From Nitrosopumilales archaeon (GTDB lineage: Archaea; Thermoproteota; Nitrososphaeria; Nitrososphaerales; Nitrosopumilaceae): a DNA stretch of 38,570 nt. Shown here one piece after another: positions 2,816 to 16,348 of the stretch (positions are counted from its first letter, which is position 1; the number at the start of each line of letters is the position of its first letter). The stretch is from positions 1 to 38,570 of the forward strand of contig QYQE01000009.1 of NCBI GenBank assembly GCA_007280335.1, given 5' to 3'. The notes under the pieces were generated by a model. That model was not told where the DNA came from, did not search any database, and saw nothing but the letters and a program-made list of their open reading frames with translations. Both the position numbers and the translations under genes were made by a program.

Positions 2816-2822
2816 TTGAAGA

Positions 2823-3116
2823 TTATTTGATGAAAACAACTTTTGATTCGTCCTCAAAAAATTCTTTGAACATTATACCGCTAAAAAATAACAATCCTAT
2901 TCCTAATGCTATTTCAAGCAAATTTACAGGTACAAACCCAGCAACTTTCAGAAATACAAAATAAAGAAATATTCCAACAACAATACCAAAGATTGTAATC
3001 TTTAGGGTTTGTTTTATCCCTATTCTGCTTGCTACTCCTATTCCTACAAGTGCCTGCTCTCCGTCTTCAACAAAGATATACTTGAATGAAGTGAAAAATA
3101 CAATTAACTCAAACAT
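2823..3116 (-). CDS. Small membrane protein, FTR1/COG4280-like start, possibly truncated
   Basis: A 97-residue protein with three hydrophobic stretches. Its start, FKYIFVEDGEQALVGIGVAS, resembles the first helix of FTR1/COG4280-type permeases, in which an acidic motif (REGxEA-like) sits in the membrane; here it is VEDGEQA. Such permeases normally have about seven helices, so this copy would be an N-terminal half or a small relative. It lies just downstream of the CDF exporter on the same strand (36-bp gap), which supports a metal-related role by context only. Confidence 0.45.
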   Translation of the reverse strand: MFELIVFFTSFKYIFVEDGEQALVGIGVASRIGIKQTLKITIFGIVVGIFLYFVFLKVAGFVPVNLLEIALGIGLLFFSGIMFKEFFEDESKVVFIK

Positions 3117-3152
3117 GACGATGAATCACTATCAGAGACCATACGCTTCATT

Positions 3153-4028
3153 TTATTTGTGTGGATTGATCAAGTCATGTTCATCCTCTATCTGTATGGT
3201 GCAATGACCTATTCCAAACTTCTCGCTCATTGTCTTTTTTATCTTGTTAAGAAGTGCACTGTTTTTGTTGGCAAATTCTTCTTTTATCTTGACGTGTACA
3301 GACATTGCATACAGATTTGAAGTAAGAGACCAAACATGTAGGTCGTGTACCTCAGCTACTTCTTCAAGTCTGCCCAATGTATCAGATATTTCATCAACCT
3401 TGATTTCTTTTGGAGTTCCTTCCATGAATATGTGAAGACACTCTCTACATAATATGACACCTGAACGAATTATCATACCTCCTATACTGACACTTATCAG
3501 AAGATCTATCGTCGGATTTGGTACAAAATACATCGCTACTCCTCCTGTTATGACACCAATAGTTGAAACAAGATCCCCCATAACGTGAATGTAAGAGCCT
3601 TTTGCGTTAAGATTGGATTTGCTGTCTTTGTGTAGGAGGCGTGCCATTACCACATTTGCACAAAGACCTACTGCGGCAAAAATTATTAGAATCTGAGAGT
3701 TGATCTGTGGAGGATTGAAAAATCTGTTGTAGACCTCGTAGAAAATCACTATAGATATTACGACCAGAGATATGCCATTGACAAATGCGGCCAATATTTC
3801 TGCTCTGTGAAAACCAAATGTCAGTTGTGGAGAGTGTGGTCTTTTTGCAATCCTGAACGCAAAAAGAGAGATCCCAATTGCAACAAAGTCAAGCATTACG
3901 TGAAAAGAATCCGAGATCAGGGCAAGACTGTTACTTAGGAGTCCCCCTGCAAGCTCCAGTACAAACACTCCCACTGCAATAAAAAATACTATTCCAAGTT
4001 TTTCTTCTATGTTATGGTGACTTGCCAT
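3153..4028 (-). CDS. Cation diffusion facilitator (CzcD/ZitB-like) metal exporter
   Basis: A proton-coupled exporter of Zn2+ or related divalent metals in the cytoplasmic membrane. The 291-residue length is typical of CDF proteins. The metal site is visible as SDSFHVMLD in helix 2 (H43, D47) and YIHVMGD in helix 5 (H148, D152), the His/Asp pattern of zinc-selective members. A soluble C-terminal domain (from about residue 205) contains EVHDLHVWSL, the usual cytoplasmic metal-binding fold. It starts inside a decayed TIG-domain frame. The substrate within the Zn/Co/Cd group cannot be decided. Confidence 0.9.
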   Translation of the reverse strand: MASHHNIEEKLGIVFFIAVGVFVLELAGGLLSNSLALISDSFHVMLDFVAIGISLFAFRIAKRPHSPQLTFGFHRAEILAAFVNGISLVVISIVIFYEVYNRFFNPPQINSQILIIFAAVGLCANVVMARLLHKDSKSNLNAKGSYIHVMGDLVSTIGVITGGVAMYFVPNPTIDLLISVSIGGMIIRSGVILCRECLHIFMEGTPKEIKVDEISDTLGRLEEVAEVHDLHVWSLTSNLYAMSVHVKIKEEFANKNSALLNKIKKTMSEKFGIGHCTIQIEDEHDLINPHK

Positions 4029-4182
4029 TTACAGTATCGGTATTTGGTTGGCTTATTGGGATTATAAAATTACCTTCTGAAGAACTGTTTCCATTCTGAT
4101 TGGTAAACACAGCAGTGATTGGTCCAGTTGCGTTAGATGGAATGAGTGCATCAATCGTATTGTTTTGTATTTGTAGTTCTGA
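4012..4182 (-). pseudogene. Remnant of an IPT/TIG-domain surface protein
   Basis: A 56-codon open stretch without a start codon reads NNTIDALIPSNATGPITAVF, then NSSSEGNFIIP. This matches the consensus of an IPT/TIG immunoglobulin-like domain (a ...IxAxVPSxATGPITV... strand pattern followed by SxGNFxI). It is closed upstream by a stop at 4183-4185 and overlaps the first codons of the CDF exporter in another frame. I read it as the last domain of a lost secreted protein. Chance similarity is possible because only one domain is left. Confidence 0.45.
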
Positions 4183-4263
4183 TTAGATGTTGTAGGTTAG
4201 TAGCCTGAAATTCTCAGTGTTAGGTTTCGGGGTTTAATCAAAATGAAGTTTTGTTTAGAGTTG

Positions 4264-4962
4264 CTATTTTTTCTTGAAATTAACTAACGTAGATTTAGAT
4301 TCAGATCTTATTTTTTTATAAGATTCTAATGCAGTAATTGTAAACGTACCAACAAAGAGTGCTAGTGGTATGGACAACCATAACGAATGTCTGTAAAATA
4401 TGAAATCCACAATTAATGCAGTTAATATGCAGAAACTCTCAGAAACAACCAAGACGTAAAGGCTAGTTTTCAATATCTGTTTAGCATAAGGTTGCCTATA
4501 CAGATAGGGCATTTTTGTGACTCCTATTGCAAAATTTCTAAAAGTTGTTTTAAGACTTGGAATGAATTTCCTGTCCTTACAATCTAGTGCAGAACAGCAA
4601 CCTTCCATTACATTATCCAAATTGTATCTGCCAAGAATAGTGGCAAAGGTTGAGAATCCAGCAAGGGCATAGCCTAGAATAAATCCGATGGCTATTCCAT
4701 CAATCCTTTGGTATCCAAACAAAAAGAAGCCCGTGTTTTCTCCAATCTCGGCTGACATTATGCAAAGGATCTCAATGCCTAATGCAGATACATACATGCT
4801 TTTTATGTTCAAAAAGAATTTTGCAATTGTAGTCTTGTCAGGTTTTTTGGCGTGAATCTCAACACAGCAGCAATCATCTTTGATGCAGATCTTACACTTA
4901 GGTAATTCTCGATTACTACATACTTCAGGGATACACAAACAGTCAGCACATTTGATTTGCAT
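4264..4962 (-). CDS. Membrane protein with cysteine-rich N-terminus
   Basis: A 232-residue protein of unknown family. The first 35 residues carry nine cysteines in clusters (CADCLC, C, CKIC, CCC) typical of metal binding. At least four hydrophobic segments follow (about residues 55-72, 85-110, 165-190, 195-215). Between them is a loop with GCCSALDC. The basic C-terminus (SESKSTLVNFKKK) should be cytoplasmic. Context is metal and redox genes on both sides. A metal transporter or sensor is plausible, but this rests on cysteine content and context, not homology. Confidence 0.6.
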   Translation of the reverse strand: MQIKCADCLCIPEVCSNRELPKCKICIKDDCCCVEIHAKKPDKTTIAKFFLNIKSMYVSALGIEILCIMSAEIGENTGFFLFGYQRIDGIAIGFILGYALAGFSTFATILGRYNLDNVMEGCCSALDCKDRKFIPSLKTTFRNFAIGVTKMPYLYRQPYAKQILKTSLYVLVVSESFCILTALIVDFIFYRHSLWLSIPLALFVGTFTITALESYKKIRSESKSTLVNFKKK

Positions 4963-5021
4963 AGATCATCTTAGATTCCAAAGAGATTTAGAGTTAATGG
5001 TTAGATTCCTCATTGAACCAT

Positions 5022-5545
5022 CTATTTCGCTATTATTCCAATATCCATGTGATTGTTCATCATGGAATGCATTGACTTTCCAGCAGGAATTACATGTGTA
5101 TGTAATGTGTAATATCCAGGAGAATCAAGTGTGAATTTGACCAGATATGTTCCACCTCCTAGATTTTCAGCATCAAACATCCCGCCTATCATATTCATGC
5201 TACTCATAGGCGCACCTTCTTCTAATCCAACAGTTACCTGAGCGTCAGTTAGAGGATTACCAGTATTTTTGTCCAGTACAAGGAGTTTGACTTGAGCTTC
5301 TTTTCCCACTGTTACTTGCTGGCTTGATTGTATTTTTATATAACATTTTTTGGATCTTGATTCATCATACTTGATATCATACCGCCGCCTTCCATCATAG
5401 AATTAGTAGAAAGGTTCTTCCAGCCCTGCATCATCGATGTAGGTGAGCATCCCAGACCAAATACCGTATTTGAAAAAAGACCAGCTATCGTAACTACTGC
5501 AGCTATTGCGATTGCTGTCACTATCAAGGTTTTATTAAATGACAA
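5022..5545 (-). pseudogene. Secreted Met-rich YtkA/FixH-like protein, split by a frameshift
   Basis: Two adjacent frames look like one gene. The upstream part (5336-5545, TTG start) has a signal anchor (NKTLIVTAIAIAAVVTIAG) and Met-rich motifs (SMMQ, MMEGGGMISSMMNQ), then stops. The downstream part (5022-5309) has no signal peptide and is a YtkA/FixH-like beta domain (VKLLVLDKNTGNPLTDAQV, GGTYLVKFTLDSPGYYTLH) ending in a Met/His-rich tail. One inserted base at about 5346-5355, beside a six-A run (coding strand), joins them as ...DPKNVYIKIQSSQQVTVGKE..., about 174 residues. Met/His content suggests Cu(I) binding outside the cell. A TATA (5565-5577) and a palindromic operator lie upstream. It may be a true mutation or a sequence error. 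Confidence 0.7.
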
Positions 5546-5583
5546 TAGCTATAATGGTTTCTTGCCATATTTTAATTGAGATA

Positions 5584-5597
5584 TTTACAATTGTAAA
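5584..5597. promoter_or_regulatory. Palindromic operator TTTACAATTGTAAA, site 1
   Basis: A perfect 14-bp palindrome between the divergent Met-rich protein (start 5545) and the YHS miniprotein (start 5639). Its centre is 45.5 bp from one start and 48.5 bp from the other. TATA-like boxes lie on both sides (5565-5577 leftward, 5607-5615 rightward), each about 26 bp from its start codon. The site therefore sits just upstream of both core promoters. Confidence 0.85.
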
Positions 5598-5638
5598 ATA
5601 CTCTAGTTAAATATCTCCAGAACCATACGAGTTTGAAA

Positions 5639-5776
5639 ATGGCTATAGATCCAGTATGCAAAATGGAAGTAGATGGAAAGAGCGCGTCGTCATCAAGCCA
5701 CGGCGGTCAGACCTATTATTTTTGCTGTCCGTCATGCAAAGGCGCATTCGATAGGAATCCTGCCAAGTATTCTTGA
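5639..5776 (+). CDS. YHS-domain metal-binding miniprotein
   Basis: A 45-residue protein that is nearly all YHS domain: it opens with AIDPVCKMEVD and ends with TYYFCCPSCKGAFDRNPAKY. The three-cysteine set C7, C30, C33 (plus C29) forms the metal site, as in YHS/TRASH domains of copper chaperones and CopA N-termini. I infer a cytosolic copper shuttle or sensor. The ATG at 5639 lies 26 bp after a TATA-like box and downstream of operator site 1, so it is likely leaderless and part of the copper regulon. Confidence 0.85.
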   Translation: MAIDPVCKMEVDGKSASSSSHGGQTYYFCCPSCKGAFDRNPAKYS

Positions 5777-5848
5777 GTGCAGACTCCCACCAACAACAGT
5801 AGTGAATTTCTTAGAGAATTCTTTTCGTTGTATGATTCCATTACTGGC

Positions 5849-6994
5849 CTAGCCAAAAGTAAATGTGTAGATCTGAAAGCCTGATTGAGCCGCAATTGTA
5901 AGTGTATGTGAGCCAGCAGTACTGCTAGAGACAATATTGTATAATCTATTTTCTGACACGTGAATTATTCCATTTTGAACATCTGTACCTGCGTAGCTGG
6001 AACTAATTGGATTCCCATCAAGCATAATCTGAAGGTCAGCCTTGTTTGCTGCAACTATGTGAACATCTTTTGCAAAGTACGGCAATACTATCCTGCCTGT
6101 CTGTGATACGAGCTTCATGCTGTCGGGAAGATTCTGCCACTGGCCTTCCAAGTAAAATTTGTCTTGTTGCAGATTGGATGGAAGCGAATAACTCACGATT
6201 TCATCTGCTTTGAATCCTTCAGAATTTCCAAGAAAGCTTCTTCCAGTGGCAAAATTGTAACCAAAGTAGAGCTCCGGAGTCTGCTGGTTTGCAAACTGGT
6301 GTTCTTTTATGTTAACAAGAGACTGGTCTGAATTAACATTTAATCCCAAGCGTTGGTTTCGCTCGTCAAGAAGTTGTTGTATTACTTTTTCAGTCTCGTC
6401 ATATGCTCCCTCTCCAAAGTGCGTGTGTCGTATATGGCCTAAAGAATCCGTGAGATATTCAGCAGGCCAATATCTATTTCCAAAAGCGTTCCACGTGCTG
6501 TGATCATTGTCAAGCACTGTAGGATATTTTAGACCGTACTTTGCTACAGCCATCTTGACATTGTTGATGTCTTTCTCAAATTCAAACTCTGGAGAATGAA
6601 CTCCTATGATGAGCAATCCCTTGTCTGAATATTTTTCGTTCCACGCCTTCAGATACGGAAATGTCCTGATACAGTTGATGCAGCTGTACGTCCAGAAATC
6701 ATAGAGTACTACTTTGTCTTTCATTGCTGCCTTGAGATCTTCTGGCGTAGTGTTGACATATCCTGATATTCCTACAAGGTTTGGCGCAAGGGGATACTGG
6801 CTTTCATCAACTTGCGGCACGGTCTTTGTACCTATACTAGTTGCAGCATCAGAATTCTGCTTGTTGTCGCTTACCGGATTTTGCAGGGAAATTTCTTTTG
6901 GCTTGTCAAGTGTGGTAAAGTAATAACCAATTCCTCCTATTGCGACAACAACAATTATCGCAACTATTGCAGCGGTTTTTATTTCGTTTCTCAT
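5849..6994 (-). CDS. DipZ/TlpA-type membrane-anchored thioredoxin
   Basis: A thiol-disulfide oxidoreductase outside the cell membrane. Residues 7-27 are a signal anchor. A TlpA-like thioredoxin domain (about 75-225) has the active site WTYSCINCIR (C105, C108) and the partner loop KYPTVLDNDHSTWNAFG. The C-terminal region (about 240-381: TPELYFGY, FYLEGQW, DGNPI) matches the carbohydrate-binding-like domain of mycobacterial DipZ. In DipZ it is fused to a CcdA membrane domain; here CcdA is the separate gene just upstream, 4 bp away, so both form an operon. CcdA presumably feeds it electrons. Confidence 0.88.
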   Translation of the reverse strand: MRNEIKTAAIVAIIVVVAIGGIGYYFTTLDKPKEISLQNPVSDNKQNSDAATSIGTKTVPQVDESQYPLAPNLVGISGYVNTTPEDLKAAMKDKVVLYDFWTYSCINCIRTFPYLKAWNEKYSDKGLLIIGVHSPEFEFEKDINNVKMAVAKYGLKYPTVLDNDHSTWNAFGNRYWPAEYLTDSLGHIRHTHFGEGAYDETEKVIQQLLDERNQRLGLNVNSDQSLVNIKEHQFANQQTPELYFGYNFATGRSFLGNSEGFKADEIVSYSLPSNLQQDKFYLEGQWQNLPDSMKLVSQTGRIVLPYFAKDVHIVAANKADLQIMLDGNPISSSYAGTDVQNGIIHVSENRLYNIVSSSTAGSHTLTIAAQSGFQIYTFTFG

Positions 6995-6998
6995 AGAA

Positions 6999-7730
6999 TC
7001 AACTCAGAAGAAGATTGTTCAAAAGAGGAAAGCTGGCTATTGCTGCAAGCTGATTGGTAAAAACCAGTACTCCTAGTAACACTATGAGTGAACCCATCGT
7101 AATGGAATAGTACTTGAGATGTTTGCTTATGGATTTGATAAGTCTGGTAAATCTGGAAAAGAATACTCCCATCAAGATAAATGGAATTCCAAGTCCAAAC
7201 GAATAGCTTAGGAGTAACACAAAGGCATGGCTTGGAGTAGTAGCTGCCAAGGTGAGAATGCTTCCAAGAATTGGCCCTATGCATGGAGTCCAGCAGGTGG
7301 CAAACGCAAGACCAAAAATAAAAGAAAGAGGATAGCTGACCTTGGTTCTATTTGGAAAAATTTTTTTCTCAAAATTTAATCTTGGAATCTTGATTGACAA
7401 TAACATGAATGCGCCAAAGCCTATGATGATTATTCCTCCAACATGATTCAAATCAGATGTTAACGTGGAAGCAGCTTTGGAAAGCACGCTGTTTAGGATT
7501 ACACCAAATATTGAAAACACGACAGAAAATCCCAGAACAAAAAATATCGTATTCATCAAAACATTGAGTCTGTTGGTGGCAAGATTGATGGTACCATTGT
7601 TTCGTTGAAGCTCGGTAATAGTTGTTCCAGATATGTATGCAATAAATGCAGGTATTACAGGCAATATGCATGGAGCTAGAAAAGATCCAAGGCCTGCTAA
7701 AGCCGCAATTGCAATGGTAAGCTCCTGCAT
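6999..7730 (-). CDS. ccdA: CcdA/DsbD-type transmembrane electron carrier
   Basis: It moves reducing equivalents from cytoplasmic thioredoxin across the membrane to extracytoplasmic thiol proteins. There are six to seven membrane segments. The redox cysteines are in LAPCILPVIP (C21) and CWTPCIGPI (C146, C150), each next to prolines as in CcdA. An in-frame TTG at 7781 would add 17 polar residues; the ATG at 7730 gives the normal CcdA start (MQELTIAIAALAGLGSFLAP), so I chose it. It is followed within 4 bp by the DipZ-like thioredoxin and preceded by the His-rich secreted protein. Confidence 0.9.
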   Translation of the reverse strand: MQELTIAIAALAGLGSFLAPCILPVIPAFIAYISGTTITELQRNNGTINLATNRLNVLMNTIFFVLGFSVVFSIFGVILNSVLSKAASTLTSDLNHVGGIIIIGFGAFMLLSIKIPRLNFEKKIFPNRTKVSYPLSFIFGLAFATCWTPCIGPILGSILTLAATTPSHAFVLLLSYSFGLGIPFILMGVFFSRFTRLIKSISKHLKYYSITMGSLIVLLGVLVFTNQLAAIASFPLLNNLLLS

Positions 7731-7790
7731 GGCTTCAGGTCTGCATCTTTTTATTAATGCTTTATTCCAAATCTCTTCCAAAACATTAGA

Positions 7791-8255
7791 CTATTTTGTG
7801 CTAAAGGAAAGTATTATTTTGTCACTATCTTTGAGGATGTATTTTTGATAGTCTGGAACTGGCTGACCGTTGACTGTCATGGTTACTTGTTTATATCCAC
7901 TAAGATTCAGTCCCCAGATGTCGAGCAGCTGCCCAAATGTGTAATATCGGTTTGCGTAAGATTCCACATGAATGGTGCCAGAAGTATCATGCGTATGTAG
8001 TGGAGCCATTCCTTTCATGCCATACGAATCAAGCGAATGATCTTGCCACATCTGCGGATCTATTCCTATCTGTGCAGGTACTGCAGCAGGCTTGCCATCT
8101 ATTACAAGGGTGAGACTTGGATGAAAGTGCATCATGCCCATGGAGTCCATTGGCGGATTGGTATAGGCATTTCCGGTTAAGGTTTTTGGCTGTTGATGTG
8201 TCATAAAAATTGCAATTCCTACAGCTATTGCTATTGCCACACATATTGCAATCAA
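7791..8255 (-). CDS. Secreted His/Met-rich protein, paralogue A
   Basis: A 154-residue protein with an N-terminal hydrophobic anchor (residues 1-19) and a histidine- and methionine-rich body: MDSMGMMHFHP, MWQDHSLDSYGMKGM, PLHTHDTSGTIHVES. The C-terminal half (VTMTVNGQPV, DSDKIILSF) looks like a ubiquitin-like beta fold. It is paralogous to 13579-14145, sharing the PVPAQIGI-type strand, the HTH...GxIHxES motif and the FGQLLDIW motif. Copper binding is a reasonable inference from side chains and operon (first gene before ccdA-dipZ), not shown. The TTG at 8255 is used because no ATG is in frame upstream. Confidence 0.75.
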   Translation of the reverse strand: MIAICVAIAIAVGIAIFMTHQQPKTLTGNAYTNPPMDSMGMMHFHPSLTLVIDGKPAAVPAQIGIDPQMWQDHSLDSYGMKGMAPLHTHDTSGTIHVESYANRYYTFGQLLDIWGLNLSGYKQVTMTVNGQPVPDYQKYILKDSDKIILSFSTK

Positions 8256-8358
8256 TTTTGGTTTCTTTGATCTTGTTCTGTTCTTTGGATTCTCGTCTTG
8301 TTTTATTTTCTTTTACCTCTTTTCATACTCAGATAACTGCCATATTAATTACTAGTAG

Positions 8359-8372
8359 TTTACAATTGTAAA
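8359..8372. promoter_or_regulatory. Palindromic operator TTTACAATTGTAAA, site 2
   Basis: A perfect copy located about 110 bp upstream of the leftward His-rich/ccdA/dipZ operon (start 8255) and just past the 3' end of the YHS gene at 8405. Spacing to the operon start is longer than at the other sites, so a leader transcript or a different promoter position is likely. The following bases (8373-8400) resemble those after site 1. Confidence 0.75.
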
Positions 8373-8404
8373 ATATTCCAGTCATATCTCAAGAACCATG
8401 TATG

Positions 8405-8596
8405 TTAGCAACATCCGCCTCCACGGTCACGAGAATTTCTTCTTTCTTCTGCCATACTTTTTTCTTCTTCTGCTCGTTGTTCTATATACCGTTGTGCGTG
8501 TTCTTCAGAACAAAGATATTTCCCAAATCTTTTGATGCCTGATTCTTTGTTTACATCCATTCCGCATACAGGACAGTGTTTTGTTGATCCAAACAT
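8405..8596 (-). CDS. YHS/TRASH-like metal-binding miniprotein with GGGCC tail
   Basis: A 63-residue cytosolic protein. Residues 8-40 form a YHS-like metal site: CPVCGMDVN, then GKYLCSEEHAQRY. A charged, probably helical segment follows (EQRAEEEKSMAEERR), and the protein ends in GGGCC, a further thiol pair. I infer copper binding or delivery to CopA, whose gene lies next upstream. It has operator site 3 centred 45 bp before the ATG and a TATA-like AATTAAAATATC about 26 bp before it. Confidence 0.82.
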   Translation of the reverse strand: MFGSTKHCPVCGMDVNKESGIKRFGKYLCSEEHAQRYIEQRAEEEKSMAEERRNSRDRGGGCC

Positions 8597-8634
8597 GTCT
8601 TTACTGGGAAACCGATGATATTTTAATTCGATAG

Positions 8635-8648
8635 TTTACAATTGTAAA
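8635..8648. promoter_or_regulatory. Palindromic operator TTTACAATTGTAAA, site 3
   Basis: A perfect 14-bp copy centred 45.5 bp upstream of the ATG (8596) of the leftward YHS miniprotein, immediately outside its TATA-like box. Position relative to the start is the same as at sites 1, 4 and 5. Confidence 0.85.
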
Positions 8649-8665
8649 ATTTCAATGGGGGGAGA

Positions 8666-8724
8666 GGCCCGATTCTTAAAATAGTTATATTTTATGGCAG
8701 ACATAACCATAGGCGAATCGGACC
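8666..8724. repeat. Nested inverted repeats between copA and YHS gene
   Basis: An outer stem pairs CCGATTC (8669-8675) with GAATCGG (8715-8721), extended by two more pairs past one mismatch. Inside it TATGG (8693-8697) pairs with CCATA (8707-8711). The nested hairpin lies in the 190-bp gap downstream of copA. It could be a transcript 3' end structure or a small RNA; it lacks a clear T-run terminator. Confidence 0.4.
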
Positions 8725-8784
8725 CACACTTCATTTTATGAAATAGTAATAAAGAGATTTTTCCAAATCTATTCCAAATAATAA

Positions 8785-11244
8785 TTAATTATTCTTTTTC
8801 TTTGGTGTCCATCTTTTCATAGCAAGTGAACTCATTGTAACAGAGACAGAACTTGCTGCCATCGCGATTCCGGCAAGTGCTGGATACAGAAATCCCAAGG
8901 CAGCTACCGGAATCAATACTGCGTTGTACATGAAAGCATAAGTCAGGTTCTGCTTTATTTTTGATACAGTCTTCTTTGCAATCTCGATTGCAGTAACAAC
9001 ATCACGTATGTCGTCCCTGATTAGTATCACTTTGCCGGCCTCTATCGCAATGTCAGTACCGGATCCGATTGCAATTCCAACATCGGCTGCAGTAAGAGCC
9101 GGCGCATCATTTATTCCGTCACCAATCATGGCAACCTTCTTGCCTTCCCCTTGGATCTTTCTCACAACGTCAACTTTCCCAGAGGGCAAAACATTTGCGA
9201 AGATTCTTTCTATGCCAACCATTGCGGCTATCTTACTTGCAGTCTTTTCATTGTCTCCTGTAAGCATAACAGGTTCTATCTTCATTGATTTCAAAATCGA
9301 GACAGCCTCTTTTGCTCCGTGCTTTGGAGTGTCAAGCAGTCCTATAATTCCAAGAACTATATTGTCTGCTGAAACTATCACCGCAGTTTTACCTTCTTCT
9401 TGAAGATTCTCAATCACTTGGTTCGAATGCGAAGTGTCTATGTTTTGATTTTGCATGAATGCTGGACCGCCAACCTTCAAGCTCAAATTGTTGTAGGTAG
9501 CTATCACACCAAGTCCTGGAATCGCTTCAAAGTATGACGCATCATCTATTTTCATTCCGTGATTTTGTGCATGTACTACAATCGACTTGGCTAACGGATG
9601 TTCAGAGCCTTTCTCTGCAATAGCGGCAAGGTATAGTGTTGCAATATTATTTTTGTCAGAATCAATGGAAAAAACTACAGTAGTTAATTTTGTTATTTCA
9701 ATTACATCTGTCACTTGTGGTTTTCCTTGGGTTAGTGTACCGGTCTTGTCAAAGATTGCTACCGAGATCTTGTTTAACAGTTCCATGGCTTCTCCGCCTC
9801 TGAATATCACACCATTTGATGCACCTTTGCTCATGCCAACCATGATTGCAGTCGGAGTGGCAAGACCAAGTGCACATGGACATGCAACTACAAGCACAGC
9901 AACTGCCGGAATTATTGCAGCACTAGTAACTCCATGTGCTACTACAAAATACCAGATCAGGAAAGTAGATAGAGCAACAATCATGACAGCGTATGCAAAA
10001 TATCCTGCAATCTTGTCAACTAATTTTTGAAGAATTGGTTTTCTTCCCATTGCTTCTTCCACGAGCTTTACTACTTGCGAAAGAAACGAATCAGAACCGA
10101 CCTTGGTTGCCTTCACGAGAATCATGCCCTCTTGGTTAATCGTACCTCCAACCACACTGTCTCCTACTTTTTTTGTGGTAGGGATAGACTCGCCAGTTAT
10201 CATGGATTCATCTACTGCAGATGTTCCTAGAACCACGGAAGAATCCACAGGAATTTTCTCACCAGGTCTCACCACTAGAATGTCTCCTGGCTGTATGAGT
10301 TCTATCGCTATCTCAGTCTCTTCATCATTCTCCTTTCGGATTCTTGCAGTCTTGGGCTGGAGCTCAAGCATCTTCCTAATTATAGAGCTGGTCTTGCCTT
10401 TGGTTTTCAGCTCCATGTATTTCCCGAGAATTATGAATGTGATGACGACTGCAGCAGCATCATAATACATACTGTGCCAGTCAGGAACTGGAAACGTGTT
10501 GAATGCGCTAAAGATGTAGGCTGTAGTTGTACCGAGCACAACCAGAGTGTCCATGTTTGCAGATCTCATCTTTGCGATTCTGAATGCACCTGTATAGAAC
10601 CTGCTTCCGGTCACAAACTGAACTACTGACGCAAACGCAAACATCGCATATGCTGCAATGTTTGTTCCAGCTGCAGGCAAAAATTTGAAAACTTCTGGAT
10701 AACTAAATAGCATAACTGGAATTGTGAAAACAACTCCTATTATGAACAAGTGCTTAAGCTTTCTTGCCTCCATGTCCTGAGTTGACACTCCAAGATCCTC
10801 GCTCAGTATTTCATATCCAAGCTCCGTGATCTTCCTTCTGATATCAGCAAGTGACAGCAGTGCAGAGTTATATTCAATGTTAACTTGCGAGCTTCCGTAG
10901 TTGACAGACACAGACTTGATGCCGTCTAGTTGATGCAGTCTTTGTTCAAGTCTTTCTGCATCCGTGGAATCAGAAACTCCACCAAGCTTCATAGTTAGTT
11001 TCTCGTAGACTACCTTGTAGCCAATCTCTTCGATTGCTTTTTCAATTGAATCTAGTTTTACTTTGGTTTGATCAAATTCTAGTGTAGCTTTTTCTGTCGC
11101 CAGATTGACTTCAACCTTATTTACTCCTGGTACCTCTGAAACAGATTTCTGGATAGAGCTGACACATCCTGCGCAATGCATTCCGCCTATTTTTATCACG
11201 GTGCGTTTGGTCTTTTCTTCTTGCTTGGCTACATCTACGGTCAT
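8785..11244 (-). CDS. copA: Copper-exporting P1B-type ATPase
   Basis: It pumps Cu+ out of the cytoplasm using ATP. The 819 residues show two N-terminal HMA domains: the first has the metal motif GMHCAGC (C24, C27), while the second (about 83-147) has the fold but no CxxC. Then come the actuator TGES (350-353), the intramembrane metal site CPC (455-457), the phosphorylation motif DKTGT (499-503), the HP-type GSEHPLA motif and GDGINDAP. The C-terminal membrane helices carry the conserved Asn and Met-Ser residues ([12 protein letters not shown]). It is divergent from the TRASH-domain regulator across a 92-bp gap containing the 20-bp palindrome, centred 47 bp from the ATG. This strongly suggests copper control. 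Confidence 0.97.
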
Positions 11245-11281
11245 ACAATATCATATACCACTGACATTTACTTAACTATGG

Positions 11282-11301
11282 CACTTTACAATTGTAAAGT
11301 G
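11282..11301. promoter_or_regulatory. 20-bp perfect palindrome between copA and its putative regulator, site 4
   Basis: CACTTTACAATTGTAAAGTG is self-complementary over all 20 bases and contains the 14-bp core at 11285-11298. It is centred 47 bp from the copA start and 45 bp from the start of the Lrp-TRASH gene. On the right, GATATACA (11307-11314) is a TATA box 26 bp before the regulator ATG, so that transcript is probably leaderless and the site lies at about -53 to -39. Confidence 0.9.
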
Positions 11302-11336
11302 TACAAGATATACATCCATGAGACGTAATCTTTGTC

Positions 11337-11774
11337 ATGCCGTTCAGATTAGATGATGTTGATATTGCCGTTCTAGAGTCTCTCCTCAAGGACGGGAGAA
11401 AATCCTTCAGGCAGATTTCAAGGGAGATAAGCGTAAGCACTCCTACTGTCACGCAGCGATATGAGAAGCTAGTTAACATGGGCCTGATCAAGGCAGTCAT
11501 GCCTATCATAGATCTTGGCATGATCGAAAACAAAGCAAGCGAAAAGCTGGACCAGATAAGGCTCAAGACAATCAAGAACCACAACATCAAGATCAGCAAG
11601 GATACAATAGTGAAGATGATATGTGACTATTGCAAGGGCCCCGTACATGAGAAGCCACACATGCTCAAGTTCGCAAATCTTGAAAGATTTTTCTGCTGCA
11701 CATCATGTAAGTCGTTATACAAGGAAAAGTACAAGGGAAGAATAGATTCGCTTACAAGCCGGAATAATTTCTGA
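11337..11774 (+). CDS. Lrp/AsnC-type regulator with C-terminal TRASH metal-sensing domain (CopR/CopT-like)
   Basis: A DNA-binding metal-responsive regulator. Residues 5-50 form an Lrp/AsnC helix-turn-helix (LDDVDIAVLESLLKDGRKSF, SVSTPTVTQRYEKL). A linker with conserved helices follows, and residues 93-133 form a TRASH domain: CDYC (C96, C99), then RFFCCTSCKSLYKEKY (C120, C121, C124). In Sulfolobus-type archaea, TRASH-domain regulators of this architecture sit beside copA and respond to copper. The Lrp ligand-binding RAM domain is replaced by the TRASH domain. It is divergent from copA and its promoter carries site 4, so autoregulation is likely. Confidence 0.92.
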   Translation: MPFRLDDVDIAVLESLLKDGRKSFRQISREISVSTPTVTQRYEKLVNMGLIKAVMPIIDLGMIENKASEKLDQIRLKTIKNHNIKISKDTIVKMICDYCKGPVHEKPHMLKFANLERFFCCTSCKSLYKEKYKGRIDSLTSRNNF

Positions 11775-11865
11775 GACCTGTTGCAACTAATGCATAAATA
11801 ATTTCATTTTACATATACTGCAATTCTTCGCAAGTATTATTAACGGGGGAAAAATATTGTGGCAC

Positions 11866-12090
11866 ATGATGTCCTGCGGCACGGGAAAAATGACAAAGAA
11901 GAAAATCGCAATTTTCTCTGCTATGGGAGTAGGCACCGCAATGGTTCTTTACTTTGCATTTGCAACACATAATCCTGCCCTTGCAGCTGTGGCTACAATT
12001 CCTCTTACCCTTGGACTCTGTCTTGCTATGTGTGCTGCAATTGGAGGCGCAATGTGGTTCAGCAACCGATTCGCCAAGAAGAAAAATTAA
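11866..12090 (+). CDS. Small two-helix membrane protein in copper cluster
   Basis: About 74 residues from the ATG at 11866; a TTG three codons earlier is also open. I prefer the ATG because an A/T-rich box (ATTATTAA, about 11836-11843) is 26 bp upstream. The N-terminus has Met/Cys (MMSCGTGKM). Two hydrophobic segments follow (about 15-33 and 37-62, the second with LCLAMCAAIGGAM) and then a basic tail (NRFAKKKN). No family is recognised. Potential thiol and thioether ligands and the location after the copper regulator suggest a metal role by context. Confidence 0.6.
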   Translation: MMSCGTGKMTKKKIAIFSAMGVGTAMVLYFAFATHNPALAAVATIPLTLGLCLAMCAAIGGAMWFSNRFAKKKN

Positions 12091-12092
12091 TT

Positions 12093-12106
12093 TTTACAAT
12101 TGTAAA
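12093..12106. promoter_or_regulatory. Palindromic operator TTTACAATTGTAAA, site 5
   Basis: A perfect copy centred 46.5 bp upstream of the ATG (12146) of the rhodanese remnant, with a TATA-like CTAAAATAC (12115-12123) 26-27 bp before that ATG. The promoter architecture is intact although the gene is not. Confidence 0.85.
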
Positions 12107-12145
12107 GGTACCAACTAAAATACCACATGATTTTACAACAAGTAA

Positions 12146-12316
12146 ATGAGTTATGCAAATCCTAATGTGCTAATTGATACAGAATTGGTTGCAAGAAATT
12201 TATCAAATAATGAAATAAAACTAGTTGAAGTGGATTACGATCCAGAGAATGCTTACAGGCAAGGTCACATACAAGGTGCCAGCTTGATTTGGTGGAAGCG
12301 TGCCAGATCCGTTTGA
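12146..12316 (+). pseudogene. N-terminal remnant of a rhodanese (thiosulfate sulfurtransferase)
   Basis: Fifty-six codons from ATG encode the start of a two-domain sulfurtransferase: YANPNVLIDTELVARNL, then VEVDYDP, then YRQGHIQGASLIWWK. Full enzymes are about 280 residues with a catalytic Cys in the second domain; here the similarity stops after IWWK (about 12296) and the frame ends at TGA 12316. The sequence then continues in another frame as a different protein. I read this as a deletion junction that removed most of the rhodanese. The promoter and operator site 5 remain. Confidence 0.75.
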
Positions 12317-12674
12317 TATTAGCTCAGATTCAAAAGTGACTGTGACAGAAAGCAGTTTCAATTCACAGTATAAAATTAACATACAGATTAGTAAAATCGG
12401 AAATCCAGATTTGTCGTTCTATGACAACAGCACGATATATCTAAAAGAATCTGGGCCGGTAGACGTGGGGGGAAGACCAGTAAATATGACTCTGGAGCTT
12501 GTTCCCAATGAGATAAATTTGTCAGCAATAAAAGATAACAAGACAGTGTCACTTCTGGTAGGAAACTATTCTCACATATTGCCTGGGAATTATTATCTTA
12601 CAATAAGTGCAGGTAATGGGATCATTACAAAATCTATTTTCATCGACTTGAATATACGTAATACAAGAAAATAG
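12300..12674 (+). CDS. Probable C-terminal remnant of a secreted beta-rich protein
   Basis: A 124-codon frame beginning at a GTG that is probably not a real start, because a stop lies only four codons upstream and the frame abuts the broken rhodanese. The content looks like an extracellular beta-sandwich: repeated polar strands, many Asn/Ser/Thr (FDISSDSKVTVTESSFNSQY, PVNMTLELVPNEINLS, LPGNYYLTISAGNGI). No signal peptide and no cysteines. It is most likely the tail of a secreted protein joined to the rhodanese head by deletion. Function is unknown. Confidence 0.5.
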   Translation: MPDPFDISSDSKVTVTESSFNSQYKINIQISKIGNPDLSFYDNSTIYLKESGPVDVGGRPVNMTLELVPNEINLSAIKDNKTVSLLVGNYSHILPGNYYLTISAGNGIITKSIFIDLNIRNTRK

Positions 12675-12735
12675 TTACGTAGTACTGGTTCAAAAAAAGA
12701 TACGATTTAATATCAACAAGCAGATTTTTGAGGCG

Positions 12736-13572
12736 TTGGAAAAGCAGAAGATAGTTCAGCGTTCTCATAAGATGCTCATTATTGTTGGATTTGTCGCAAT
12801 GCTGATCTCGTTTCTAGCGTACTGGAATAACCACTCGCTCATGATCACACCAGCTGTCATGCCAGCATTACAAAGACTCGCGATAGTGGCATACGTAATC
12901 ATGTTCCTGTCTTTTGGTTCTATCGGATGGGGCTTGCACCGATTCTACAAGGTAAAGATCAGAGATGCCGACGATTCTACTTCATCCATAATTTCAAGCG
13001 TGATTAACAGCAAAAAGTCAAAGCGGATCTTTGTCATCAGTGCCATTGGATACGGCCTGTTCTTTGCATTCGGCTCAGGCATAATACTCTACAAGCCAGA
13101 GCTGAACTTTACTGATTACGGCCTTCCAGTGCCAATGGCAGAGTTATCCCCCTGCTGCGGTCTTCCAGGACAGATGCCCATGATTCTTGCCACATTCACA
13201 GAGCACTGGGGCTTTCAATTGATTCCACTCAATCTGGTGTTGTGGGTGATAGTCTCCTTCTTGGTTGGTCTTAACTTTACAATGATGGCAAAGGCATTTT
13301 CAATTGCAAAAAAAAGCAAGGGATTAGGAATCTTCGGAGCAGCTACAGGTTGTTTTGTTGGATGTCCGACATGCGCTGGTACCGTATTCTTTTTGCTCAC
13401 TAACATGGGGATTACAGCTACAACGACTGCAACCACAATATTTCTTACAACGTACGGACTGCAACTTCAAAGTATTTTCATGGCAATATCCATTCCAGCA
13501 CTGTTGGCAACTCCTTACATAATGGCAAAGGCAATCAGAAAATCTTCTCAAGAATCATGTTCATTGAAATAG
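12736..13572 (+). CDS. Polytopic membrane protein with CC and CxxxCxxC motifs
   Basis: A 278-residue protein with about six hydrophobic segments (near 13-30, 45-66, 97-118, 160-185, 196-225, 230-258). Two cysteine sites stand out: SPCCGLPGQ in a loop (C140, C141) and GCFVGCPTCAG at the edge of a helix (C206, C210, C213). No known family is recognised. The second motif can be lined up with SSACSACSTT in the membrane protein at 14915, suggesting a shared helix design. A TATA-like TTTAATATC lies about 27 bp before the TTG start. Neighbours (DsbA-like, CCCHC protein) suggest a role in extracytoplasmic thiol or copper chemistry; this is inference. Confidence 0.65.
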   Translation: MEKQKIVQRSHKMLIIVGFVAMLISFLAYWNNHSLMITPAVMPALQRLAIVAYVIMFLSFGSIGWGLHRFYKVKIRDADDSTSSIISSVINSKKSKRIFVISAIGYGLFFAFGSGIILYKPELNFTDYGLPVPMAELSPCCGLPGQMPMILATFTEHWGFQLIPLNLVLWVIVSFLVGLNFTMMAKAFSIAKKSKGLGIFGAATGCFVGCPTCAGTVFFLLTNMGITATTTATTIFLTTYGLQLQSIFMAISIPALLATPYIMAKAIRKSSQESCSLK

Positions 13573-13578
13573 ATTTGA

Positions 13579-14145
13579 CTATTCCCCTTCTGGGAACTGA
13601 TAGAACGATGGGATTTGTGAAGGCTCATTTCCGTACACGAGCACAATCTCATCATGCTGATTTATTTTGGTCTCGCTCAAGCTAGTGCTCACTGCTTGTC
13701 CGTTGACAAATATTTTTGGCGCGGCTCCTGAAATAGGAAATTCATTTGTAGCCTTCTAGATGTCAACGAACTGTCCCAAAGTGAACTCTAGTGATTTTGG
13801 CGATTCCATGTGTATTATACCATCTATTGAATGAGTGTGCATCCAGTAGAGGCATGTGTTGTCCACTATGCCTATTTGTGCTGGAACGGGGACGGAGTTA
13901 CCATTAACAAAGACATCAAGATGAGCATGGTTGTGCAGTACAGCATATTCGTTGATATTGCATGCTATGCCGTCGATTACCTGAGCTGCGCTCGTTGGAG
14001 CTTTGTCTAAATCGTAACTGACGTAAGCAATTGCAACAATGATCCCAGCAAAAATGCCTATCGCAATCAGTTTGTTTCTATGCTTAGAATTTTGTCCGAG
14101 TTCTTGTTTTCTTTCTGACAATGAGTTTAAACTATAAATGGGCAT
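13579..14145 (-). pseudogene. Secreted His-containing protein, paralogue B, interrupted by an in-frame TAG
   Basis: The frame from ATG 14145 stops at TAG 13756-13758, but the same frame continues with coding character to TAG 13579-13581 (188 codons in total). The stop falls in FTLGQFVDI-stop-KATNEFP. The paralogue at 7791 reads YTFGQLLDIWGLNLSG, so the TAG replaces a conserved Trp (TGG to TAG, one base). The remainder (PKIFVNGQAVST, INQHDEIVLVYGNE) matches the paralogue's C-terminal beta domain (MTVNGQPV, DSDKIILSF). The N-terminus has a membrane anchor (residues 27-43) and His motifs HNHAHLDVF and MHTHSIDGIIHMES. It is a recent nonsense mutation, read-through, or a base error. Confidence 0.75.
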
Positions 14146-14242
14146 AAATAATTATCAGTCATATATTAGGTGAAAAAATATTTCAGAAAAGCCACGTAAA
14201 CTAACTATTGATATCACAAAAGGAACGATTCTCCTTTTTGCT

Positions 14243-14911
14243 GTGTTTCTTGTCATTGGATATTTTATTGGAGGAACATTTCCCCCTAGTAATTTCACAG
14301 GAGCTGCAAAAGAATCCAATGTTATGATTCAACAACAACCACAACAGGCGCAACAAACGATGAAACTTCAGATACCGTCGTTTACACCAGCAAGAGGATC
14401 AGACTCGGCTCAGCTCAACATTGTGGAATTTGGCGACTATCAGTGCCCATTCTGTGAGAAATTCTTCCAGGAAACAGAACCTCAAATAATGCAAAACTAT
14501 GTTAACACTGGAAAAGTCAAATTTTATTTCGAGGGAGTTCAATTTGTCGGTCCTGATTCGCTCACATTAGGGCAAGGATCATGGTGTGCAGATGAACAGG
14601 GAAAATACTATGAGTATCACGATCAAATGTATTCAAATCAGGGAAGAGAAAACAGTGGTTGGGGAACTCCAGATAAAGTCAAAGCGCTCGCAGCAGGCAT
14701 AACAGGACTTGATACGCAAAAGTTCAACGCTTGCCTTGACAGTAAAAAATACGAATCTCGAGTGCAACAATTAACGTCGTTTGCGCAAAATGTTGGTGTG
14801 ACTGGGACTCCGACTAGTTTCATAGGAGACAACCAGAAAGGATACATCCCCATTGTTGGAGCACAACCTTATGATGTGTTCAAGCAAGTCATAGACAAGC
14901 AGCTGGGTTAA
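14243..14911 (+). CDS. DsbA-family thiol oxidoreductase, N-terminus apparently frameshifted
   Basis: An extracytoplasmic thioredoxin-fold enzyme of the DsbA/thioredoxin_4 family. It shows the active site QCPFC (C68, C71), preceded by IVEFGDY, a helical insertion with the conserved WCADEQGKYYEYHDQMY, and the cis-Pro loop GVTGTPTSF. The open frame from GTG 14243 has only half a signal anchor. Upstream codons stay open and read SEKPRKLTIDITKGTILLFA, a natural N-terminus, but have no start. Deleting one A from the run at 14173-14178 joins them to GTG 14170, which lies 26 bp after a TATA (about 14143-14153). I infer a true start at 14170 with an indel. The next gene starts 3 bp downstream. Confidence 0.85.
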   Translation: MFLVIGYFIGGTFPPSNFTGAAKESNVMIQQQPQQAQQTMKLQIPSFTPARGSDSAQLNIVEFGDYQCPFCEKFFQETEPQIMQNYVNTGKVKFYFEGVQFVGPDSLTLGQGSWCADEQGKYYEYHDQMYSNQGRENSGWGTPDKVKALAAGITGLDTQKFNACLDSKKYESRVQQLTSFAQNVGVTGTPTSFIGDNQKGYIPIVGAQPYDVFKQVIDKQLG

Positions 14912-14914
14912 ACG

Positions 14915-15451
14915 ATGAATGTTATAGTAATGAAAAGTGCGTTTCTAATAGTTTTCAGAAATCCAGCATATGTGATATCGTCAATCCTGATTTCCTCTTT
15001 CATGTTTTTTATTTTCATACTGGCAAACAACTTTTCAACTTTCGTCACGGTGATTGGTCTTAATGCTTCTCCAAAATTACTCCTTGATGTGACAACAAAT
15101 GGTGCTTCAAACATACTATATGCTGCCGGTGCTGCTCTGTTTTCGTCCATTATAGCTGTTTCAATACTTTCTGGAATAACAATCTCCATGATAATCTATC
15201 AGCTGCGCATCACAAGATCCTTTGGTGGTAAGAAAAACCTTGCAGGCTTTGGAGGAATTTTTGGCGGTGCATTTTCTTCCGCATGCTCTGCCTGTTCTAC
15301 TACATTAGCATCTATTTTTGGAGTAGCAGGGGGACTTGCCATATTTCCTCTGAAGGGATTAGAGATCAGCTTGCCAAGTATCGGCATTCTTGTTGCATCC
15401 ATGTATTTCATTTCCAAAGGCCTGATGGAATCAGGGAGATGTAAGATATGA
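14915..15451 (+). CDS. Membrane protein with a CxxC pair
   Basis: A 178-residue protein with four to five hydrophobic segments (about 18-38, 64-94, 112-142, 147-168). The sequence GGIFGGAFSSACSACSTTLA places C124 and C127 inside or beside a Gly-rich helix, an unusual place for a CxxC. It ends GRCKI. It follows the DsbA-like gene by 3 bp and overlaps the next gene by 4 bp, so the three form an operon. The Cys-Gly helix resembles that of the protein at 12736. A thiol relay partner for the DsbA-like enzyme is an attractive but unproven role. Confidence 0.65.
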   Translation: MNVIVMKSAFLIVFRNPAYVISSILISSFMFFIFILANNFSTFVTVIGLNASPKLLLDVTTNGASNILYAAGAALFSSIIAVSILSGITISMIIYQLRITRSFGGKKNLAGFGGIFGGAFSSACSACSTTLASIFGVAGGLAIFPLKGLEISLPSIGILVASMYFISKGLMESGRCKI

Positions 15452-16152
15452 AAATGGAAATACCGGTAAAGTATCTTGTGACGGGAGGATTATCTGCTGT
15501 TGCAACAGTTTTTTTCATCTTCATAGCTTATCATGGTCCTTCTGTTTCAGAATCTGCATCTCTCCATCCTGCAAACAGTCAACTGCTTGGGATTTACAAC
15601 TCAATTCCAACGAAAACCGGCAAGAATGTATTTTTAGTTCAGAGCAAGAACTTGACCAAGTCAGTAGATCCTGAGCTTGTAGATCTGGACAGCCAGATAA
15701 TTTCGTGTAGCCCTAATGTGAATGACCTGCTAACATCTTCTCCAAACATAGGTGGGAGTTGCACCGGACCAAGCGTACACATTGACAGCATAGATGGAAA
15801 ATATTTGAGCGGCCAGTGCTGTGGGGCCCTCAAGAACACTACAGAATATCATGAACATCTAGAAAAGCTCAAACAGTATTCAGACATATCAGACATACCA
15901 CTCAACCCCTATAAGACTTCGGTAGATGTTGCAAAGAAATGGATTGACTATAACAACAGAACCACACTTAGCACATCCGAGCAGGTAATGTACAATCAGG
16001 CCATGAAAATATCATCAGAGGGACCATGCTGCTGCCATTGCTGGCACTATTATGTCAACGAAGGCATTGCAAAGAAAATGATCCATGACTATGGATACAA
16101 CGCACAGCAGGTATCTGATTTCTGGGATGTTTCTGACATCTGTGGAATATGA
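15448..16152 (+). CDS. Secreted cysteine-rich protein with CCCHCWHYY motif
   Basis: A 234-residue protein with an N-terminal anchor (residues 8-28) and an extracytoplasmic body. It contains 11 cysteines: SCSPN, SCTG, QCCGAL and the cluster PCCCHCWHYY (C194-C196, H197, C198, H200), followed by YVNEGIAKKMIHDYGY and DICGI. The clustered Cys/His residues look like a metal site or multi-disulfide centre. I know of archaeal proteins with a similar CCCHCW motif but no assigned function. It is translationally coupled to the preceding membrane protein (ATGA overlap) and downstream of DsbA. Confidence 0.7.
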   Translation: MKMEIPVKYLVTGGLSAVATVFFIFIAYHGPSVSESASLHPANSQLLGIYNSIPTKTGKNVFLVQSKNLTKSVDPELVDLDSQIISCSPNVNDLLTSSPNIGGSCTGPSVHIDSIDGKYLSGQCCGALKNTTEYHEHLEKLKQYSDISDIPLNPYKTSVDVAKKWIDYNNRTTLSTSEQVMYNQAMKISSEGPCCCHCWHYYVNEGIAKKMIHDYGYNAQQVSDFWDVSDICGI

Positions 16153-16183
16153 AACGAGATAAAGTGAGAAGAATTTCTTTTGA

Positions 16184-16280
16184 TCATTTACTAGGTTCTA
16201 CATTTTCAAGGTCTTCTTCAAGCTCCTTTACCAAACCCTTCCACCATTCTTGAAATTCCACCTCCGAGATTTTCTTTCAT
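16184..16280 (-). pseudogene. Possible 31-residue microprotein, broken by one base
   Basis: On the minus strand a short run reads EVEFQEWWKGLVKELEEDLE and then NVEPSK-stop, a convincing acidic amphipathic sequence. It has no ATG in frame, but removing one A after the ATG at 16280 gives a 31-residue frame starting MKKISEVEF. Strict reading would allow only a 25-residue frame from GTG 16261. It lies opposite the winged-helix gene with an inverted repeat upstream. This is weak evidence: short length and no homology in hand. Confidence 0.25.
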
Positions 16281-16289
16281 ATTTTTTCT

Positions 16290-16310
16290 TATAACATATT
16301 TTTTGTTATA
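16290..16310. promoter_or_regulatory. Inverted repeat TATAACA-N7-TGTTATA
   Basis: Perfect 7-bp arms (16290-16296 and 16304-16310) around a 7-bp A/T spacer, placed 94 bp upstream of the winged-helix gene and 10 bp upstream of the possible microprotein. The symmetry fits a dimeric regulator site, perhaps for the winged-helix protein itself. It differs from the copper-island palindrome. Confidence 0.4.
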
Positions 16311-16333
16311 CGAAGAAATACCTTCATCTGGAC

Positions 16334-16348
16334 TTTACAATTGTCAAA
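16334..16348. promoter_or_regulatory. Variant operator TTTACAATTGTCAAA, site 6
   Basis: The left arm and centre match the island palindrome (TTTACAATTGT), but a C is inserted in the right arm before AAA. It lies about 63 bp upstream of the winged-helix gene start (16404), farther than the usual 46 bp. It may be a weak or decayed site. Confidence 0.5.

Follow-up and report, generated by a model that had tools for sequence, protein, structure and literature searches.

In Pyrococcus furiosus, the copper regulator CopR, which combines an Lrp-like helix-turn-helix (HTH) with a TRASH domain, binds TTNNCAWWWTGNNAA directly upstream of the B recognition element (BRE) and activates copA and other genes. 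It represses its own gene, and copper lowered its DNA binding in vitro; loss of copR gives copper sensitivity, and sites in this position accompany activation (PMC7830388). Here we analysed a stretch of 38,570 nucleotides from a Nitrosopumilales archaeon (contig QYQE01000009.1 of assembly GCA_007280335.1; the whole stretch is called the window below). In it a 14-bp palindrome, named here the CopR box, recurs around a copR-type gene on an island of copper and thiol genes. The palindrome is conserved in many relatives, which points strongly to a role as the site where the copper sensor CopR docks.

As in P. furiosus, a regulator with HTH and TRASH domains is encoded divergently from copA and has several candidate copper and redox targets, and the half-sites TTNNCA/TGNNAA form a semi-palindrome directly upstream of BRE/TATA. 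The regulator fits the archaeal CopR type by its HTH, its TRASH domain with conserved cysteines and the divergent copper ATPase; copper-responsive binding is predicted. The spacer is 2 bp at the conserved sites and 3 bp in P. furiosus, a detail of the species rather than a family-defining one. Other differences are that the site here is a nearly fully determined 14-mer, with one box midway between the copA and copR starts, that the C-terminal histidine stretch is absent, that the regulon is carried in an apparently accessory island, and that the candidate targets include small YHS/TRASH proteins, a rhodanese and Dsb-type genes.

The locus also resembles the CopT/CopR-CopM-CopA system of Sulfolobus solfataricus, in which a TRASH regulator is clustered with a Cu-ATPase and a small metal-binding protein. 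CopT of Nitrososphaera viennensis was named by similarity only; that study gave no operator for the Nitrososphaera genes and termed their regulation an open question (PMC7785015). The N. viennensis copper-limitation motif TTCSGSMTTTGWACYANT (PMC7785015) differs from the box, and the motifs published for that species were rejected as the same element, as their sequences are different. No earlier report of the 14-mer in archaea was found in the literature searched.

A further likeness is to the bacterial CopY/CopR proteins of the BlaI/MecI family, whose cop box TACANNTGTA is contained in the 14-mer and also governs copper export. The operators of Lactococcus lactis CopR, a member of the CopY family, at copB and yahC contain the identical 14-mer at their centre (PMC7253601). 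However, CopY belongs to an unrelated protein family and is a repressor. The CopY 16-mer RNYKACANNTGTMRNY needs R...Y outer bases (PMC7253601), whereas the bases immediately outside the archaeal 14-mer are mostly Y...R (173 promoter sides, defined below), and thus the full operators differ. With both its ends, RNYKACANNTGTMRNY fits none of the five sites in the window; only the core is present.

Copies of the palindrome

The 14-mer TTTACAATTGTAAA has perfect copies in the window at 5584, 8359, 8635, 11285 and 12093. Pattern searches, from which all genome-wide counts are taken, covered 1,296,374 bases in 84 contigs (95% complete) and found no other exact copy; all five lie inside 6.5 kb of the island. 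Chance alone would place five sites of a 1.3-Mb genome in a 6.5-kb stretch with a probability of about 3e-9. At two or fewer mismatches the window contains nine matches, against 0.95 expected from shuffles. The one-mismatch matches elsewhere in the genome (contigs C11, C18 and, twice, C25) are situated in sequence that reads as coding. The first-pass annotation of this DNA had listed the five copies, seen no other full copy in the window, and held that an even spread of the motif through the genome would refute a local regulon; exact copies of the motif proved to be confined to the island. The sites, all exact matches, are as follows.

5584..5597: CopR box 1, between the divergent genes 5545(-) and 5639(+); TATA-like sequences at about 5567-5575(-) and 5607-5614(+).
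8359..8372: CopR box 2, upstream of an operon for a His/Met-rich protein, DsbD and thioredoxin (-); TATA-like sequence at about 8342-8348.
8635..8648: CopR box 3, upstream of the gene of a small TRASH-like protein (-); TATA-like sequence at about 8618-8626.
11285..11298: CopR box 4, common to copA(-) and copR(+); TATA-like sequences at about 11268-11275(-) and 11306-11313(+).
12093..12106: CopR box 5, upstream of the truncated rhodanese gene 12146(+); TATA-like sequence at about 12115-12122.

A sixth, variant copy at 16334, which the same annotation had counted in the set, was rejected. It is a real one-mismatch copy, but it stands 63 bp from its gene (16404), a different spacing, and outside the island. 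It was dropped because it sits in backbone DNA common to island-free relatives, where the copR-less genome G005 has the degenerate TTTATAATTGTCAA; in another relative (L148) the near-copy is absent.

Conservation and co-occurrence with copR

A search of the genome collection for copR loci found the palindrome in 18 of 18, and in the full-length cases it was some 37-48 bp before the copR start. We then considered 72 distinct upstream regions of copR genes, whose proteins are 47-100% identical. A perfect TTTACANNTGTAAA is present 37-48 bp before the copR start in 48 of the 72 regions, and a match with at most one mismatch in 51. The reversed pattern was not found there, and 0.08 matches are expected in shuffled sequence. 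The two centre bases vary: they are mostly AT, but AA, TT, AC, AG, GT and CT also occur. Therefore the box is TTTACA-NN-TGTAAA.

Among 151 genomes of the family, 61 have a CopR orthologue, separated by a wide score gap from other Lrp proteins. The exact palindrome is present in 49 of these 61 genomes and in 15 of the 90 genomes lacking copR (Fisher p=3e-15), and permutation of labels within genera gave p=1e-5, although both tests leave some shared ancestry in, which weakens the case to that extent. In the genus of the window, two genomes with copR have 5 and 7 exact copies; G005, G027 and G043 have neither copR nor an exact box.

Orthologous sites of boxes 1 and 2 were found in the same five related loci (L035, L036, L049, L051, L090), and sites orthologous to box 3, with different centre bases, in L035, L036, L049, L051 and L052. 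The orthologue of box 5 in L049 precedes an intact rhodanese of 281 residues. In many relatives the box is situated between copR and the copper ATPase gene. In a further family (f8), and with one mismatch in another (f4), it lies between copR and the gene of a YHS-ATPase. The expectation that the motif should also precede orthologous genes was thus borne out in many genera and also outside the family, in at least one other. The genes following the box in other genomes encode a multicopper oxidase, a plastocyanin-like protein and a ZnuA-like binding protein; DsbA- and DsbD-type proteins, an HtrA-like protease and an intact two-domain rhodanese; YHS-domain ATPases; and proteins of the DUF192, DoxX and DUF4396 types. 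What the members of the predicted regulon have in common is the export of copper, extracytoplasmic copper proteins and thiol repair.

Position relative to promoters

The palindrome centre is removed from the start codon by 45.5 bp at 5545 (TTG), 48.5 bp at 5639, 45.5 bp at 8596, 47.5 bp at 11244, 45.5 bp at 11337 and 46.5 bp at 12146. These values agree with the range of 45-49 bp given for six starts in the first-pass annotation, and the TATA-like box it had placed between palindrome and start codon is seen at all six. Box 2 has no canonical start at the usual distance, because the ATG present in a relative (L051) is missing here. Nonetheless, the 7791-8255 gene and its operon lie downstream of this box, a placement that is conserved in relatives.

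The geometry was also analysed on a collection of 169 distinct perfect sites, yielding 173 promoter sides oriented to downstream open reading frames (ORFs) with starts at 36-62 bp. The TATA-like TTAAATAT is found at +16 to +23 from the centre and is mirrored on the opposite side, and start codons are most frequent at +44/45 (62 of the 173 sides); selection by ORF distance limits the weight of the distance range itself, but not of the peak or the TATA-like box. The gap between the palindrome and the TATA-like box is only about 9 bp. This suggests leaderless transcripts with an operator abutting the BRE, for which such a geometry is expected.

Several loci contain more than one box. L089 (4127/4180) and L188 (7294/7348) each have a pair of boxes, spaced 53-54 bp, between divergent genes, with a DoxX-like gene on one side; in L089 a nearby box precedes a DUF4396 gene. 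Such pairs may serve one promoter each or bind two dimers jointly. L039 (9912/9956) and L043 (5457/5501) have two boxes with a spacing of 44 bp between copR and a DsbD-like gene, each at the right distance for one of the two promoters.

The CopR-type regulator

11337..11774 (+): copR, encoding the predicted sensor and binder, with an AsnC/Lrp-type winged HTH (residues 5-52) and a C-terminal TRASH domain (95-133), assigned by Pfam.

This protein matches HTH_24 (8.9e-12) and HTH_AsnC-type (1.4e-10), and its residues 4-60 are matched by Lrp-family structures. The match to Arc_trans_TRASH is at 27.9 bits, against a cut-off of 27; no other TRASH match in the genome exceeds the cut-off. Within the island, no other gene product is recognisable as a DNA-binding protein. 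The gene is divergent from the adjoining copA (8785-11244, minus strand). C96, C99, C120, C121 and C124 are invariant among the CopR proteins compared. Strong conservation of the HTH and its recognition-helix region extends to CopR proteins that are 51% identical, as expected if these proteins read the same DNA. The AlphaFold model has a modest mean predicted local distance difference test score (pLDDT) of 70 and supports only the presence of HTH and TRASH parts joined by a flexible linker. By CopR, the nearest relatives are thaumarchaeal metagenome-assembled genomes, followed by Nitrosotenuis, Nitrosotalea and Nitrosarchaeum. No relative of copR was found in the viral contigs searched for a viral origin.

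Two genomes have two copR copies each: Nitrosotalea sp. TS (L042 and L051) and REEA14 (L049 and L050). One copy of each pair is on an island-like stretch, that of REEA14 being truncated; these are signs of island gain and decay.

Proposed function and alternatives

The palindrome is probably the operator of the CopR encoded in the island, which with Cu(I) would activate largely leaderless promoters of copper and thiol genes. We infer CopR binding, copper as the signal, and activation over repression, the last being in keeping with the position of the sites and with the published Pyrococcus case (PMC7830388). A CopR dimer would occupy TTTACA-NN-TGTAAA just upstream of BRE/TATA, at about -52 to -39. 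Filling of the C-terminal TRASH site by Cu(I) would then allow the bound CopR to aid loading of the TATA-binding protein (TBP) and transcription factor B (TFB). Transcription would be raised for the CopA exporter, the small YHS/TRASH proteins, the thiol-redox proteins of the envelope (DsbD, thioredoxin) and CopR itself. A single box midway between divergent start codons would serve both promoters.

One alternative retains the same box and the same CopR, but as a copper-released repressor: apo-CopR would block TFB/TBP or polymerase, and Cu(I) would release it. The reduced DNA binding with copper and the self-repression in P. furiosus (PMC7830388) are in line with this, as is the short gap before the TATA-like box. 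On the other hand, the site is upstream of BRE/TATA and not over it, a placement that goes with activation in P. furiosus, where loss of copR moreover causes copper sensitivity (PMC7830388). The near-constant distance across targets in turn suggests contact with the basal machinery. We consider repression unlikely.

It is very improbable that another local regulator binds the palindrome. The candidate would be the ArsR-like 16404 protein, a winged-HTH protein with the one-mismatch copy upstream of its own gene. However, this gene is outside the island and occurs in 110 of the 151 genomes, including G005, G027 and G043, which have no exact palindrome, and the near-copy is itself degenerate or missing in relatives. 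The protein was therefore rejected on distribution, as its gene is present with or without the box. Even less probable is a repressor of the CopY/BlaI type, as in Firmicutes, in spite of the shared cop box and the identical 14-mer in L. lactis. No match to PF03965 (Penicillinase_R) was found in this genome at E <= 0.001; the family exceeds the cut-off, weakly, in only 7 of the 151 genomes, and the outer bases are of the opposite type. This candidate was also rejected on distribution. It is hardly credible that the palindromes represent a repeated or mobile element, or promoters duplicated recently, with no regulatory role. Some flanks are alike, such as the right flanks of 5584 and 8359, but flanks and centre bases differ between relatives that retain the boxes, the spacing to TATA and start codon is preserved, and the same kinds of genes adjoin across many genera.

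Several observations weigh against the CopR box as a CopR operator, besides the residual shared ancestry in the tests above. The box is absent from 21 of the 72 copR upstream regions, several of these genes being close behind another gene or having a more degenerate site, and the copR upstream regions of one f8 genus have no box. Exact copies occur in 15 of the genomes lacking copR, and some of these cases may be due to chance or to incomplete assemblies. Two of these, G041 (L099, L129) and G133 (L100, L130, L131), have 2-3 exact boxes and no detected copR. One of the boxes in G041 is between a DsbD-like gene and another typical target, and one in G133 precedes an aconitase gene; in these genomes copR may have diverged or be missing. 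The served genes had been described as metal-binding or redox genes with a TRASH regulator among them; this holds, but the genes at 5545 and 12146 are broken in this assembly. Finally, positive autoregulation of copR is a guess, because P. furiosus CopR represses its own gene.

Genes of the island

2818..16246: island, absent from the same-genus genomes G005 and G043, with about 2 kb in its place (blastn of the window against L149 and L150; outer limits inferred).
5022..5545 (-): YtkA-like exported protein, frameshifted near 5335-5351; YtkA match, and the L035 homologue matches in two frames.
5639..5776 (+): metal-binding protein of 45 residues with a YHS domain (Pfam YHS, 3.6e-15).
5849..6994 (-): exported thioredoxin-like protein (Pfam Thioredoxin_10, 4.1e-33; Redoxin).
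6999..7781 (-): DsbD/CcdA-type membrane protein (Pfam DsbD_TM, 4.8e-12).
7791..8255 (-): His/Met-rich exported protein, first gene of the box 2 operon; L051 homologue 77%, with homology reaching 8309.
8405..8596 (-): small Cys-rich, TRASH-like metal-binding protein of 63 residues, a CopM-like candidate chaperone; CxxC motifs in the sequence, no confident Pfam match.
8785..11244 (-): copA, P1B-type copper-exporting ATPase with two HMA domains and a CPC motif (Pfam E1-E2_ATPase, Hydrolase, HMA twice).
12146..12316 (+): rhodanese remnant, matching the first 52 of 281 residues of the L049 rhodanese.

Pfam matches and direct reading further identified a DsbA-like protein and a cation-efflux protein. 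The L035 homologue of the 5022-5545 gene is a single intact ORF of 174 residues, and the frameshift could be true decay or an assembly error. At 12146-12674(+), the rhodanese breaks off after about 52 of 281 residues and is followed from 12300 by an ORF of 124 residues of other origin, which suggests a deletion that fused two genes. The His/Met-rich exported proteins encoded at 7791-8312(-) and 13639-14145(-) are distantly related (31%) and belong to no Pfam family.

The 2 kb that replace the island appear, by reading, to code for dehydrogenase-like and radical-SAM-like proteins. In G058 the island is about 1 Mb distant from the 16404 orthologue. Since it is replaced in genomes of the same genus and lies so far from this orthologue in G058, the island is apparently an accessory, exchangeable cassette bringing regulator and operators together, so that the regulon would move as a unit.

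Implications

The energy metabolism of ammonia-oxidizing archaea is copper-dependent. The genome analysed here carries an archaeal amoA gene, and therefore the organism is an ammonia oxidizer. The CopR box offers a candidate answer to how ammonia-oxidizing archaea switch on copper defence: a conserved operator with fixed geometry names the putative regulator, its targets and the exact bases to mutate. With this simple motif the copper regulon can also be sought in new genomes.

More tentatively, and on balance somewhat doubtfully, two unrelated sensor families, the archaeal Lrp-TRASH CopR and the Gram-positive BlaI-type CopY, may have independently reached the same 14-bp operator core. In ammonia-oxidizing archaea this core would be carried along with its regulator on exchangeable copper islands, forming a fixed-spacing activator module for divergent leaderless promoters that includes positive control of copR. 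The box would then be a clean example of metal sensors from two domains that share no homology yet have a common operator core.

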